From: Solwaraspora sp. WMMA2056
GTDB taxonomy: Bacteria > Actinomycetota > Actinomycetes > Mycobacteriales > Micromonosporaceae
Direction of reading: 5' to 3'
Assembly: GCF_030345095.1 (NCBI RefSeq)
Contig: NZ_CP128360.1
Coordinates: forward strand, 6,076,001-6,140,000
Length of the DNA: 64,000 nt
Position 1 is the stretch's first letter. Each line of letters opens with the position of its first letter. The notes under the pieces are model-generated. The model worked only from the letters and a program-made list of their open reading frames with translations, had not been told where the DNA came from and did no database searches. This document shows, piece after piece, positions 59,107 to 61,678 of the stretch. Made by a program: the position numbers and the translations under genes.

Positions 59107-60261
59107 TCATCGGCGGAACGGGCCCCGCACCTCGTAGGTGATGCCGCCGGAGGACAGCCCCGAGGTGCCGCGCTGCGACGAGAAGTACAGCCGGGTGCCG
59201 TCCGGGGAGAACGCCGGCCCGCAGATCTCCGACGCCGACTGCCCACTGATCCGCGCGAACGGCGCGACCCGGCCGTCCGGCGTGATCAGGCAGATCTCCA
59301 TGTTGCCGCCGTCCTCGGCCACGTACAGGTCGCCGCCGGGCGTACCGGTGATGTTGTCGACGCCGGTCAGCGGTGCCGTGCCGGTCACCAGCGAGTCGTC
59401 GTAGGCCAGGTCGATCCGCTGGGCGACGGCGTCGTACGCCCAGACCCGGTTGTCGCCCTTGGTCGTGAACCAGCAGGTGCCGTCGGCGTAGTGGCAGCCC
59501 TCGCCACCGTTGAACCGCTTCGCGCCGGAGACCTGGTTTCGGGTGGCCGTCGGTGCGCCGTCCGGGTCGGGCACCCGCGACCAGCTCACCGGGCCGCTGG
59601 TGGCGGTGCCGGCGACGAGCACCTCCAGGGTGCCGGCGGACAGGTCGCCCCAGGTGTCCGGCCGGAACCGGTAGAAGCAACCGTTGGACTCGTCCTCGGT
59701 GAGGTAGACCACCCGACGGTCCGGGTCGACGGCGGCGGCCTCGTGGTTGAACCGGCCCATCGCGTCGTGCCGCACGGCGGCGGTGCCGCCCAGCGGGTAC
59801 GTCTCGTAGACGTACCCGCGGCTGACCTCCTCGCAGGACAGCCAGGTCCCCCAGGGGGTCGCGCCACCGGCGCAGTTGCGGTTGGTGCCGGCCAGGATCC
59901 GGTACGCCGAGACGACGTCGCCGTCGGCGTCGAACCGGATCGCCGAGGCACCGCCGGTGCGGGAGATCTCCGAGTTGGAGACGTACACCCAGCCGGAGCC
60001 GGCGGGGAAGCAGGCGCCACCGTCCGGGGCGTCGTGCCAGACGTACGAGGTGGCGCCGACCCGCTGCCGGGAGCGGGCCACGACCCGGCTGCTGAAGCCG
60101 CCGGGAAGCGCGATGCCGTTGGCGTCCGGGCTGCCCAGGGCGCCGTACGGGCTGGCCCCGGGCTGCGCGGGGGCGGCGAACGCCCCCGTCCACAGGCTGC
60201 CGGAGAACGCGGCGGCGCCGGCGCCGACCACGGCGGTACGCAGTACCGTACGACGATCCAT
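59107..60261 (-). CDS. Tat-exported DUF839 (PhoX-related) protein
   Basis: 384 residues. Twin-arginine signal MDRRTVLRTAVVGAGAAAFS; then a DUF839 beta-propeller (GWVYVSNSEIS, GATPWGTWLSCEEVSRGYVY, GRFNHEAAAVDPDRRVVYLT, VWAYDAVAQR). DUF839 includes the calcium/iron alkaline phosphatase PhoX; this protein is shorter than classical PhoX, so activity is uncertain. ATG 60261 follows GGAGG. Three ATCGACGnnGGT repeats lie upstream. Confidence 0.87.
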   Translation of the reverse strand: MDRRTVLRTAVVGAGAAAFSGSLWTGAFAAPAQPGASPYGALGSPDANGIALPGGFSSRVVARSRQRVGATSYVWHDAPDGGACFPAGSGWVYVSNSEISRTGGASAIRFDADGDVVSAYRILAGTNRNCAGGATPWGTWLSCEEVSRGYVYETYPLGGTAAVRHDAMGRFNHEAAAVDPDRRVVYLTEDESNGCFYRFRPDTWGDLSAGTLEVLVAGTATSGPVSWSRVPDPDGAPTATRNQVSGAKRFNGGEGCHYADGTCWFTTKGDNRVWAYDAVAQRIDLAYDDSLVTGTAPLTGVDNITGTPGGDLYVAEDGGNMEICLITPDGRVAPFARISGQSASEICGPAFSPDGTRLYFSSQRGTSGLSSGGITYEVRGPFRR

Positions 60262-60271
60262 CTCGACCTCC

Positions 60272-60334
60272 ATCGACGTGGGTGACAATCGACGAAGGTA
60301 GGCCGCGACGATGGCCGCAGACATCGACGAAGGT
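60272..60334. promoter_or_regulatory. three ATCGACGnnGGT repeats upstream of the DUF839 gene
   Basis: 60272-60283 (TG in the middle), 60288-60299 and 60323-60334 (both AA). On the minus strand each is preceded by a GTnACC- or CTACC-like sequence, weakly resembling PhoP direct repeats. Candidate phosphate-responsive operator. Confidence 0.3.
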
Positions 60335-60390
60335 TAACGGCGAACGAGGTCCGGTCGAAGTCCGGTGGTGTCGTCCGGCACGAAATCCGG

Positions 60391-60396
60391 TACAGT
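60391..60396 (+). promoter_or_regulatory. -10 box of the DAHP synthase leader transcript
   Basis: TACAGT, 7 nt before GTG 60404, the first codon of the leader peptide. Confidence 0.55.
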
Positions 60397-60403
60397 GTGC
60401 GTC

Positions 60404-60463
60404 GTGGTGCACACGTATCGATGGTTTAGGCAGCCGGCCCTGATGCCGGTGACGCGGCCTTGA
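60404..60463 (+). CDS. attenuator leader peptide of DAHP synthase
   Basis: 19 codons reading VVHTYRWFRQPALMPVTRP and TGA at 60461-60463. It is leaderless. Codons 5-8 are Tyr-Arg-Trp-Phe (60416-60427), the three aromatic amino acids made by the pathway. Ribosome stalling there would control folding of the downstream RNA. Confidence 0.8.
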   Translation: MVHTYRWFRQPALMPVTRP

Positions 60464-60511
60464 CCTGACGTCACCCCACCAGAGCCGGCCAAGGGCAGAG
60501 GGCATCGGGCC
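60436..60511 (+). promoter_or_regulatory. antiterminator helix of the aro attenuator
   Basis: GGCCCTGATGCC (60436-60447) can pair with GGCATCGGGCC (60501-60511): 11 bp with one bulged T. The second strand overlaps the terminator's left arm end, loop and right arm start, so the two structures exclude each other. Confidence 0.7.
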
Positions 60512-60522
60512 CCTGCCCTTTT
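60491..60522 (+). terminator. intrinsic terminator of the aro attenuator
   Basis: AAGGGCAG-A-GGGC and GCCC-CTGCCCTT form a 12-bp stem with one bulge and a 5-nt loop, ending in TTTT. It lies 74 nt before the DAHP synthase ATG. Confidence 0.85.
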
Positions 60523-60595
60523 GCATGCCAACGAACAGCCGGCTCGGGCTGGGGGCGCCGGCTCCCCAGGCGGCTGGCGAAAGGAAGAGCACCGC

Positions 60596-61678
60596 ATGAT
60601 GACCTCCGGACGGATCACCGATCAGCGCATCGACCGAGTCGTCCCACTGACCACCCCCGCCCTGCTGCACCACGAACTGCCGCTGGACGATCAGCTCACC
60701 GCCCGGGTGCTGGCCGGTCGACAAGCCGTGGCCGGAGTGCTCGACGGCCAGGACGACCGGCTGCTGGTCGTGGTCGGGCCCTGCTCGGTGCACGACCCGG
60801 CCGCCGCGCTGGAGTACGCCCAACTGCTCGCCACCGCCGCGCAGCGGCACGCCGAGGACCTGTTGATCGTCATGCGGGTCTACTTCGAGAAGCCCCGCTC
60901 CACCGTCGGCTGGAAGGGCCTGATCAACGACCCCGGCCTGGACGGCTCCGGGGACGTCAACTCGGGGCTGCGGATCGCCCGGTCGCTGCTGCTGGAGGTG
61001 CTGCGGACCGGTCTGCCGGTGGGGTGCGAGTTCCTCGACCCGATCACGCCGCAGTACATCGCCGACACCGTCGCCTGGGGTGCCATCGGCGCCCGTACGG
61101 TGGAGAGCCAGGTGCACCGGCAGCTCTCCTCCGGTCTGTCGATGCCGATCGGCATGAAGAACCGTCCCGACGGCAGCGTGGCCACGGCCGTGGACGCGAT
61201 CCGGGCCGCAGCCGTACCGCACGTCTTCCCCGGCATCGACATGTCCGGGACCCCGGCGATCCTGCACACCCGGGGCAACGCCGACTGTCATCTGGTGCTG
61301 CGGGGCGGGGCCGGCGAGCCGAACTACGACGCCGCGTCGGTGGCCGCCGCGCTGGACCTGCTGCGGGCCAGTGACCTCCCGCAGCGGCTGGTCATCGACG
61401 CCAGCCACGGCAACAGCGGCAAGGACCACCGTCGGCAGCCGCTGGTGGTCGAGGACATCGCCGGTCAGCTCGGCGGCGGCCAGCGGGGCATCGTCGGGGT
61501 GATGCTGGAGTCGTTCCTGGTGCCCGGCCGGCAGGATCTGGACCCGACCGGGGAGCTGGTCCACGGCCAGTCGATCACCGACGCCTGCATGGGGTGGGAG
61601 CAGACCGCCGAGGTGCTGCAGCGGCTCGCCGCAGCGGTCGGTGACCGGCGGGCGGCGCTCGCCACCGCCTCACGGTGA
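60596..61678 (+). CDS. aroG: 3-deoxy-7-phosphoheptulonate synthase, class I (AroFGH type)
   Basis: 360 residues. LVVVGPCSVHDPAAALEYAQ, MRVYFEKPRSTVGWKGLIND, SQVHRQLSSGLSMPIGMKNR, DCHLVLRGG and IDASHGNSGKDHRRQP are the metal, PEP and E4P ligands of the class I enzyme. It catalyses the first step of the shikimate pathway. Most actinobacteria also have a class II enzyme, so this is probably one of two. ATG 60596 follows AAGGAAG. Regulation by aromatic-amino-acid attenuation is indicated by the leader. Confidence 0.96.
   Translation: MMTSGRITDQRIDRVVPLTTPALLHHELPLDDQLTARVLAGRQAVAGVLDGQDDRLLVVVGPCSVHDPAAALEYAQLLATAAQRHAEDLLIVMRVYFEKPRSTVGWKGLINDPGLDGSGDVNSGLRIARSLLLEVLRTGLPVGCEFLDPITPQYIADTVAWGAIGARTVESQVHRQLSSGLSMPIGMKNRPDGSVATAVDAIRAAAVPHVFPGIDMSGTPAILHTRGNADCHLVLRGGAGEPNYDAASVAAALDLLRASDLPQRLVIDASHGNSGKDHRRQPLVVEDIAGQLGGGQRGIVGVMLESFLVPGRQDLDPTGELVHGQSITDACMGWEQTAEVLQRLAAAVGDRRAALATASR

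Follow-up and report, generated by a model that had tools for sequence, protein, structure and literature searches.

Does a short open reading frame (ORF) in front of a gene for aromatic amino acid synthesis sense the supply of aromatic amino acids, and by which route would it control the gene? The question is raised by a locus of Solwaraspora sp. WMMA2056, where a gene for a class I 3-deoxy-D-arabino-heptulosonate 7-phosphate (DAHP) synthase of the aroF/G/H type (60596-61678, plus strand; Pfam DAHP_synth_1, E 8.7e-85; NCBIfam aroFGH, E 3.2e-140) is preceded by a short ORF with Tyr, Trp and Phe codons and by a predicted terminator. DAHP synthase is the first enzyme in aromatic amino acid synthesis. 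All positions refer to the window, the whole stretch of 64,000 nucleotides that was analysed (contig NZ_CP128360.1, positions 6,076,001 to 6,140,000). An initial annotation of the window had described the locus as a leaderless attenuator in which stalling on any of the three codons lets an antiterminator displace the terminator. We consider it likely that the leader is a ribosome-sensing leader-peptide switch of the AroR type known from Corynebacterium glutamicum, acting on the class I DAHP synthase. The sensing step is well supported, and the output step is a proposal.

The leader peptide and its conservation

We sought the enzyme in 150 genomes of the window's family and found it in 121 of them. 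In this family 123 upstream regions were read, that of the window included; left unread were those of G066 and G097, one of three in G086, the second in G079 and three short matches. A leader is present in 111 of the 123 regions, namely the 109 analysed in detail plus L176 and L177, the latter with Tyr and Phe only. The 12 regions without a leader are L047 and L178-L188, and L178-L188 precede divergent or second copies of the gene. A relaxed rescan of 36 regions listed as lacking a leader added only L177; an ORF with two aromatic residues was seen in L237 and left uncounted. Six further genomes of the family that came from an order-wide search (L111-L115, L120) all carry the leader. Leaders inside a genus are related and these counts are therefore not independent.

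Among the 109 leaders, 108 contain Tyr, 102 Trp and 109 Phe, and 101 contain all three. The conservation of the Tyr-Arg-Trp-Phe codons in close relatives, which the initial annotation had proposed as a check, is borne out. The elements that it named are all found in the sequence at their positions, and the family conserves the whole arrangement: a probably leaderless peptide bearing codons for Tyr, Trp and Phe, the terminator behind it, and DAHP synthase as the target. The order and the neighbours of the aromatic residues vary between leaders (YRWF, WYxWF, FYWF, YWRF, WYQRF, WYRF) while the composition stays, which looks like selection for composition. Codon choice is strongly skewed, with 108 TAT to 1 TAC and 116 TTT to 10 TTC in the 109 leaders; in 31 ORFs of the window with high G+C content at third codon positions the corresponding ratios are 13 to 219 and 2 to 253. 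At the sensing positions, codons that are rare in the window's genes would fit a device that works by stalling. The leaders that lack Trp and keep Tyr and Phe are L080, L089, L099, L100, L105, L071 and L081 (e.g. MILDYRRFTVAPGG), five of the seven coming from one genus.

A TANNNT hexamer lies 6 to 8 nt upstream of the start in 109 of the 109 leaders (7 nt in 71, 6 nt in 37 and 8 nt in 1), a figure that is biased upward since starts were chosen among in-frame codons to fit TANNNT. Comparison thus shows the leader to be real and conserved; it is likely to be an aromatic leader-peptide switch, and its ORF is probably translated from a leaderless transcript.

The positions of the leader and of the RNA elements discussed below are collected in Table 1.

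Table 1. Sequence elements between the promoter and the start of the DAHP synthase gene (window positions)
Element	Sequence	Position	Strand	Remarks
-10 element	TACAGT	60391-60396	+	Predicted transcription start on GTG 60404, seven bases on
Leader peptide with stop	MVHTYRWFRQPALMPVTRP	60404-60463	+	GTG 60404, 19 codons, TGA 60461-60463; probably leaderless
Sensor codons	TAT CGA TGG TTT	60416-60427	+	Tyr-Arg-Trp-Phe
A1	GCCGGC-C-CTGATG	60433-60445	+	Soon after Phe codon; partner A3 or A2
Putative antiterminator, 5' arm	GGCCCTGATGCC	60436-60447	+	Partner GGCATCGGGCC, 60501-60511
A2	GCCGG	60445-60449	+	Short hairpin with CCGGC, 60434-60438
Stop-codon hairpin	GGTGAC/GTCACC	60448-60475	+	Arms 60448-60453 and 60470-60475; in predicted folds of L001, L008 and L022
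A3	CACCAGAGCCGGC	60477-60489	+	Partner A1 or A4; ends one base before terminator
Predicted terminator hairpin and T-run	AAGGGCAG-A-GGGC/GCCC-CTGCCCTT	60491-60522	+	12 pairs, one bulged A; TTTT 60519-60522
A4	CAGCCGGCTC	60536-60545	+	Downstream of terminator; partner A3 or A5
A5	GCTGGC	60573-60578	+	Beside Shine-Dalgarno; can pair with A4
Shine-Dalgarno of DAHP synthase gene	GAAAGGAAG	60579-60587	+	Read from sequence

We found no aromatic leader upstream of the class II DAHP synthase gene of the same genome (G000:C1:3373088-3374371, L190), and the 20-base sensor motif did not turn up a second time in the genome when up to three mismatches were allowed. In Rfam 15 no family scores above its gathering score in 59500-61500, and none of the seven sub-threshold matches is an amino-acid-gene leader. 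The divergent neighbour (59107-60324, minus strand) encodes a PhoX-type protein (Pfam PhoX, E 4.7e-36).

Alternative RNA pairings and the position of the ribosome

Five RNA segments recur in the leaders: A1 soon after the last Phe codon, then A2, then A3 and A4, which flank the terminator on its upstream and downstream side, and finally A5 close to the Shine-Dalgarno sequence. We compared the pairing of cognate arms with that of arms exchanged between groups of leaders, in one run with 103 leaders and in another with 123 leaders and finer windows. Cognate arms of A1:A3 paired better than swapped arms in 100 of 103 and 117 of 123 leaders, those of A3:A4 in 85 of 103 and 101 of 123, and those of A4:A5 in 62 of 103 and, with the finer windows, 95 of 123. 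For pairings that no model needs the test favoured cognate arms in 53 of 103 leaders (A1:A4) and, in the larger run, in 59 (A1:A4), 70 (A1:A5) and 63 (A3:A5) of 123.

Base changes give further information on the individual helices. For A1:A3 in group B, pairing stands at 94 % and both partners have changed in two of the pairs (C-G/U-A 17:7 and G-C/A-U 23:1); its covariation score was reached by none of 500 shuffles and its number of double-changed pairs by 91 of 500. The A1:A2 hairpin is paired to 99 % in group A and 100 % in group B, with no compensatory change in either. For A4:A5 a test of the end pairs gave 58 of 66 against a shuffle maximum of 57, with 96 of the 162 leaders found overall unscored. 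The swap test favours A4:A5 in most groups, but as a universal pairing it is unsupported, since in group B only 12 of 35 leaders have cognate arms that pair better than swapped ones.

A pairing that recurs widely is that of A1, directly behind the last Phe codon, with A3. Each leader was folded as far as the terminator while a ribosome masked it from 15 bases behind to 17 bases ahead of the P-site base. The ribosome stood either at the stop codon or at the final codon for Tyr, Trp or Phe. Leader L147, with a hairpin and no T-run, was left out, as were four leaders with little pairing when ratios were taken; the samples comprised 120 leaders for the stop codon, 120 for no ribosome, 119 for Tyr, 113 for Trp and 120 for Phe. 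The seven bases adjoining the terminator form 5.9 expected pairs with A1 when the ribosome is at the stop codon; for a stall the figure is 6.2 with Tyr, 4.0 with Trp and 1.0 with Phe. Pairing of A1:A3 falls below half of its value at stop in 104 of 116 leaders on a Phe stall, in 36 of 109 on a Trp stall and in 1 of 115 on a Tyr stall. The window itself follows this profile, with 6.0 pairs at stop, 6.0 at Tyr, 3.1 at Trp and 0.2 at Phe. With front edges of 13, 15, 17 and 20 bases, 3.2, 1.3, 0.9 and 1.5 pairs are left at Phe, 6.3, 5.2, 3.7 and 1.7 at Trp, and 6.3, 6.3, 6.2 and 5.0 at Tyr, so the Phe effect is the strongest at all four edges and near that of Trp at edge 20 (1.5 versus 1.7; 103 and 96 leaders). 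From this geometry mainly Phe sensing is predicted. Equal sensing of Tyr, Trp and Phe is doubtful: the predicted effect of Phe exceeds that of Trp, and Tyr is predicted to have almost no effect on A1:A3. Tyr is nonetheless conserved about as well as Phe.

Possible routes from a stalled ribosome to the gene

A3 abuts the terminator. Among the matches listed, 99 of 120 leaders have a predicted helix that stops 0 to 1 nt short of the terminator, and in 76 of these the partner lies in A1. A terminator hairpin could be assigned to 103 of the 109 family leaders, with 43 distinct arm pairs, 98 by a scan requiring three T and five by hand; the hand-placed L016 and L028 have no T-run of three, and T-runs are short. 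In the 24 leaders of group B the terminator is 97.9 % paired and five of its ten pairs are changed on both sides; of 500 shuffles, 5 gave as many double changes and none attained the covariation score. Six leaders of one genus (L068-L070, L072-L074) have no terminator hairpin.

Three further observations concern this part of the leader. Group B has a further stem downstream of the terminator, 79.2 % paired, in which three pairs show double changes. The A1/A2 stretch of group B, GGGTGGAG, could by eye pair with the 3' arm of the terminator. Where the terminator is missing, only a short distance separates A3 (GAGCCGG) from A4 (CCGGCTC), as seen in L068-L070, L072-L074, L129-L138, L141-L143, L145, L149-L151 and L164.

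We propose the following chain of events. With enough charged tRNA the ribosome would reach the stop codon, A1:A3 would form, the terminator would fold alongside and expression would be low. When charged tRNA-Phe, and to a lesser degree tRNA-Trp, is scarce, the ribosome would halt on the last codons and mask A1. In the window and its sister species the antiterminator pairing of the initial annotation may then restrain the terminator; across the wider family A3 would be freed, and either the terminator would perhaps become less effective or A3 would bind A4 and remodel the region before the ribosome binding site. In each case the level of DAHP synthase would go up. The output could take one of two forms. 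A1:A3 may stack on the terminator and make a weak terminator efficient, in which case stalling would remove this helix, or the freed A3 may bind A4 and release A5 near the binding site. A route like the latter would be needed in lineages without a terminator, where the leader is kept though the terminator is missing.

The initial annotation proposed one specific antiterminator, formed by GGCCCTGATGCC and GGCATCGGGCC, and this duplex has 11 pairs with one bulged base at -22.5 kcal/mol. We folded the RNA ending before the 3' arm of the terminator, with a front edge of 17. In the window (L001) the antiterminator then forms 11.0 expected pairs on a Trp stall, 9.0 on a Phe stall, 4.7 on a Tyr stall and 0.0 at the stop codon, and in L002 it likewise forms on Trp and Phe stalls, the two leaders giving 9 to 11 pairs there. 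With the same footprint the values elsewhere in the genus are 0.0 in L003-L005, 2.1 to 3.8 in L006 and 0.1 in L007. The trp leader of Escherichia coli, taken as a control (L279), forms 9.4 and 10.3 pairs of its region 2:3 at the two Trp codons and 0.0 at stop under the same procedure. The antiterminator is thus plausible in the window and its sister, where it behaves like the E. coli control, and it is not conserved in L003-L005 and L007 and only partial in L006. As a mechanism of the whole family we rejected it, the pairing not being conserved.

When folding is done at equilibrium, with the terminator complete, the terminator is formed to 0.96-0.97 overall and 0.91-0.99 by group in every ribosome state. 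These values are uninformative, as the E. coli trp leader behaves alike with 0.86 in all ribosome states, and equilibrium folding was dropped as a means of excluding antiterminators. The outcome of this control raises the odds of a classical attenuator and lowers those of the translational and helper-helix readings.

A classical attenuator of the trp/phe type, in which a stalled ribosome lets the two arms of this antiterminator pair and block the terminator, is a rival reading of the locus. It is favoured by the pairing at Trp and Phe stalls and its absence at stop in L001 and L002, as for region 2:3 in E. coli, and by the strength of the duplex, the strongest of its kind among 103 leaders. 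These two leaders, however, belong to sister species whose enzymes are 99 % identical, and elsewhere the pairing drops to 0.0 (L003-L005) or is only partial (L006). In L001 it forms partly without a ribosome (5.8 pairs) and engages only the inner part of the terminator; it is lost when the 3' arm is included at equilibrium, although the E. coli control does not pass that test either. In addition, the same stretch finds at least 9 pairs somewhere in the terminator in 76 of the 97 leaders besides L001-L006 (mean -12.8 kcal/mol), which makes such matches common. We find the scheme plausible in the window and its sister but not family-wide, and as an explanation of the leader we regard it as unlikely. 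The complementarity of the inner terminator stretch to the end of the leader ORF in L001 and L002 is possibly a recent gain. A translational attenuator would dispense with the antiterminator: A1:A3 and A4:A5 together would be the off state, stalling would free A3, A3:A4 would form and A5 and the Shine-Dalgarno sequence would be released, the terminator being an optional extra. The persistence of the leader without a terminator in six leaders of one genus, in 14 leaders of family f15 and in four of family f8 (L150 by eye) is in line with this, as are the co-varying arms of A4:A5 (e.g. GACCGGC:GCCGGTC in L129 and L131, CAAGCCG:CGGCTTG in L133) and a fall of 6-7 kcal/mol in the opening cost of the window's binding site on stalling, from 17.3 to 10.6-11.2 kcal/mol. 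Yet the opening cost shows no consistent fall across groups, and the Shine-Dalgarno sequence of the window is predicted to become less free on stalling, from 0.99 to 0.62 on a Tyr stall and to about 0.3 when the stall is on Trp or Phe (15 leaders with no gene start found were left out of this accessibility set). Cognate A4:A5 arms are better than swapped ones in only 12 of 35 leaders of group B and 8 of 14 within f15, A3:A4 does not rise above swapped arms where the terminator is absent (7 of 14, 3 of 6 and 0 of 3) and hardly varies there, and shuffles in group C often match the observed values. In several f8 leaders A5 could, by eye, also pair with the flank of the Shine-Dalgarno sequence, which would reverse the sign. 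Judged by predicted accessibility, a translational switch is inconsistent across leaders, and we hold this reading to be rather doubtful.

It is also conceivable that the leader merely tunes basal expression, through translation of the first ORF or messenger stability, and that the aromatic residues serve the peptide itself. Some non-aromatic residues (e.g. PA) are indeed kept in the group A peptide, but they overlap A1 and A2, and the shifting order and neighbours of Tyr, Trp and Phe at constant composition, together with the TAT and TTT codons, speak against it; we regard this explanation as highly improbable. A more novel arrangement for the output of the proposed switch, which we hold to be rather unlikely, would have no base-paired antiterminator in most lineages. 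A1:A3, formed behind the passing ribosome, would dock end-to-end on a weak terminator and make it work, and the stalled ribosome would withhold that helix; one sensor, its signal relayed through A1:A3, A3:A4 and A4:A5, would be coupled to the terminator or, in actinobacterial lineages lacking one, to the binding site, and the species pair of the window may have added a classical antiterminator.

Several results weigh against the ribosome-sensing switch as we propose it. In the window's own group the pairings that no model needs also favour cognate arms, with A1:A4 at 31 of 34 in the first run and A1:A4 at 27, A1:A5 at 24 and A3:A5 at 30 of 33 in the second. The swap test is thus unspecific in this group, where the energy differences are -2.3 to -3.9 for the unneeded pairings and -6.5 for A1:A3, -5.8 for A3:A4 and -10.6 for A4:A5. 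In group A the A3:A4 helix is 94 % paired without a compensatory pair, and the stop-codon hairpin (28 leaders) is 97.6 % paired with one-sided changes only, values equalled by shuffles. The pairing of A3 with A1 is weaker without a ribosome (4.4) than with a ribosome at stop (5.9), and L067 shows no Phe effect in the mask folding. Should the switch respond mainly to Phe and Trp, the near-invariance of Tyr would lack an explanation. Capture of the 5' arm of the terminator is not raised by stalling in 103 family leaders: a Phe stall lifts it more than 0.25 above the stop state in 3 of 103 leaders, a Trp stall in 1 of 96 and a Tyr stall in 0 of 102, whereas it is lowered in 40, 57 and 88, respectively. 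With seven of 145 leaders left out, opening of the binding site on a Phe stall is easier in 68 and harder in 48 of 138 leaders relative to the stop state, and easier in 49 and harder in 56 relative to no ribosome. Across the family no general route from stall to output was found.

In family f8 (Mycobacteriaceae) the A5 segment of L157, L159, L161 and L163 (e.g. CAGGTGCC) can by eye pair with the flank of the Shine-Dalgarno sequence, GGCACCTG. If this pairing is real, the chain would contain an extra step and the sign of a translational switch would be changed.

Known systems and spread among actinobacteria

The closest known counterpart is the leader AroR of the C. glutamicum aroF gene, described as containing Phe-Tyr-Phe (PMC4046766). 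According to a 2025 review, transcription of the aroF operon goes up when the ribosome stalls on AroR under Phe limitation, and Tyr is without effect (PMC11802643). Both systems place an aromatic-codon leader before a DAHP synthase gene, and the response to Phe and not to Tyr matches the prediction of our mask folding (PMC11802643). Unlike the Phe-Tyr-Phe leader, the leaders described here contain Tyr, Trp and Phe, and the likeness is one of published description. The trp attenuators of Corynebacterium and Streptomyces share the short ORF, the regulatory codons and the G+C-rich terminator, but they are reported to have conserved antiterminator/terminator triples, whereas here an antiterminator is found only in the window and its sister (PMC1262725). 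The same 2005 survey reports no conserved structures outside the Trp, Cys and Leu pathways and the ileS T-boxes (PMC1262725). Leader ORFs of Streptomyces lividans TK24 are likewise on leaderless transcripts and several are without a clear terminator; that paper lists eight leaderless leader peptides for leu, trp, ala, ilv, met and thr, and DAHP goes unmentioned in its text (PMC8079986).

More distant comparisons concern the mode of action. Like the trp attenuator of E. coli, the leader has regulatory codons upstream of a terminator, and in the window the stall-dependent pairing before the 3' arm is similar; the E. coli leader, by contrast, is directed at one amino acid and its ORF is led by a Shine-Dalgarno sequence. 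The antiterminator of the E. coli trp leader is conserved among its relatives. As in translational attenuators of the ermC type, which sense an antibiotic, a chain of alternative pairings could carry the stall to the binding site, although here such a binding-site switch is a proposal. In the openly accessible literature we found no report of such a leader in Micromonosporaceae, of its spread, or of a DAHP synthase leader with three aromatic amino acids.

The leader extends well beyond the window's family. An order-wide search of 200 genomes, the window's family included, found the enzyme in 95, and 53 upstream regions from other families were read, chosen to spread over families. A leader with TANNNT at 5 to 8 bases is present in 35 of these 53 regions, with 14 of 23 in f15, 16 of 16 in f8, 2 of 2 in f3, 3 of 3 in f4 and 0 of 9 in f16. 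Among the best 80 named loci listed, 17 of 22 actinobacterial loci bear such a leader, including Micromonospora, Paractinoplanes, Kribbella, Amycolatopsis, Rhodococcus, Williamsia, Streptomyces sp. 150FB, Arthrobacter and Isoptericola; those that lack it number five, namely two Nocardiopsis, two Streptosporangiales-type metagenome-assembled genomes and one metagenome-assembled genome of Bifidobacteriaceae. Some of the named loci duplicate others in the set (L154/L220, L138/L223). In the 162 leaders overall, some of which are repeated, 152 contain all three aromatic residues, with 160 TAT to 7 TAC and 172 TTT to 33 TTC. The initial annotation had regarded one leaderless peptide for all three products as an unusual design, which is only partly right, as three-aromatic leaders precede DAHP synthase genes in many other actinobacteria.

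If the proposed switch is real, leader-peptide control of the entry into the aromatic pathway would be widespread in actinobacteria, beyond Corynebacterium. The genera that bear the leader include known antibiotic producers. Since a terminator or an antiterminator is present in some lineages and absent from others, they would form a natural series for studying how a single sensor is coupled to transcription or translation, and they would provide a clear test of whether three codon types in one peptide represent three signals or mainly one.

In one f15 genus, three of the genomes each have more than one class I DAHP synthase gene. There the copy nearest to the window protein (66-67 % identity; L124, L126, L128) has no leader and the copy with 62-63 % identity (L141-L143) has one. 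Aromatic-rich short ORFs also occur upstream of proteobacterial DAHP synthase genes, e.g. MSAKFYFYFFWHLKPLADREGES and MITVATSYFWYFSYDSSLAAGGSRSI, in Xanthomonas, Bradyrhizobium, Burkholderia, Caballeronia, Dyella and others (L224, L226, L228, L238, L243, L248, L249, L251, L254-L257, L259, L260, L264, L267 and L269); these multi-aromatic ORFs look unrelated or convergent.

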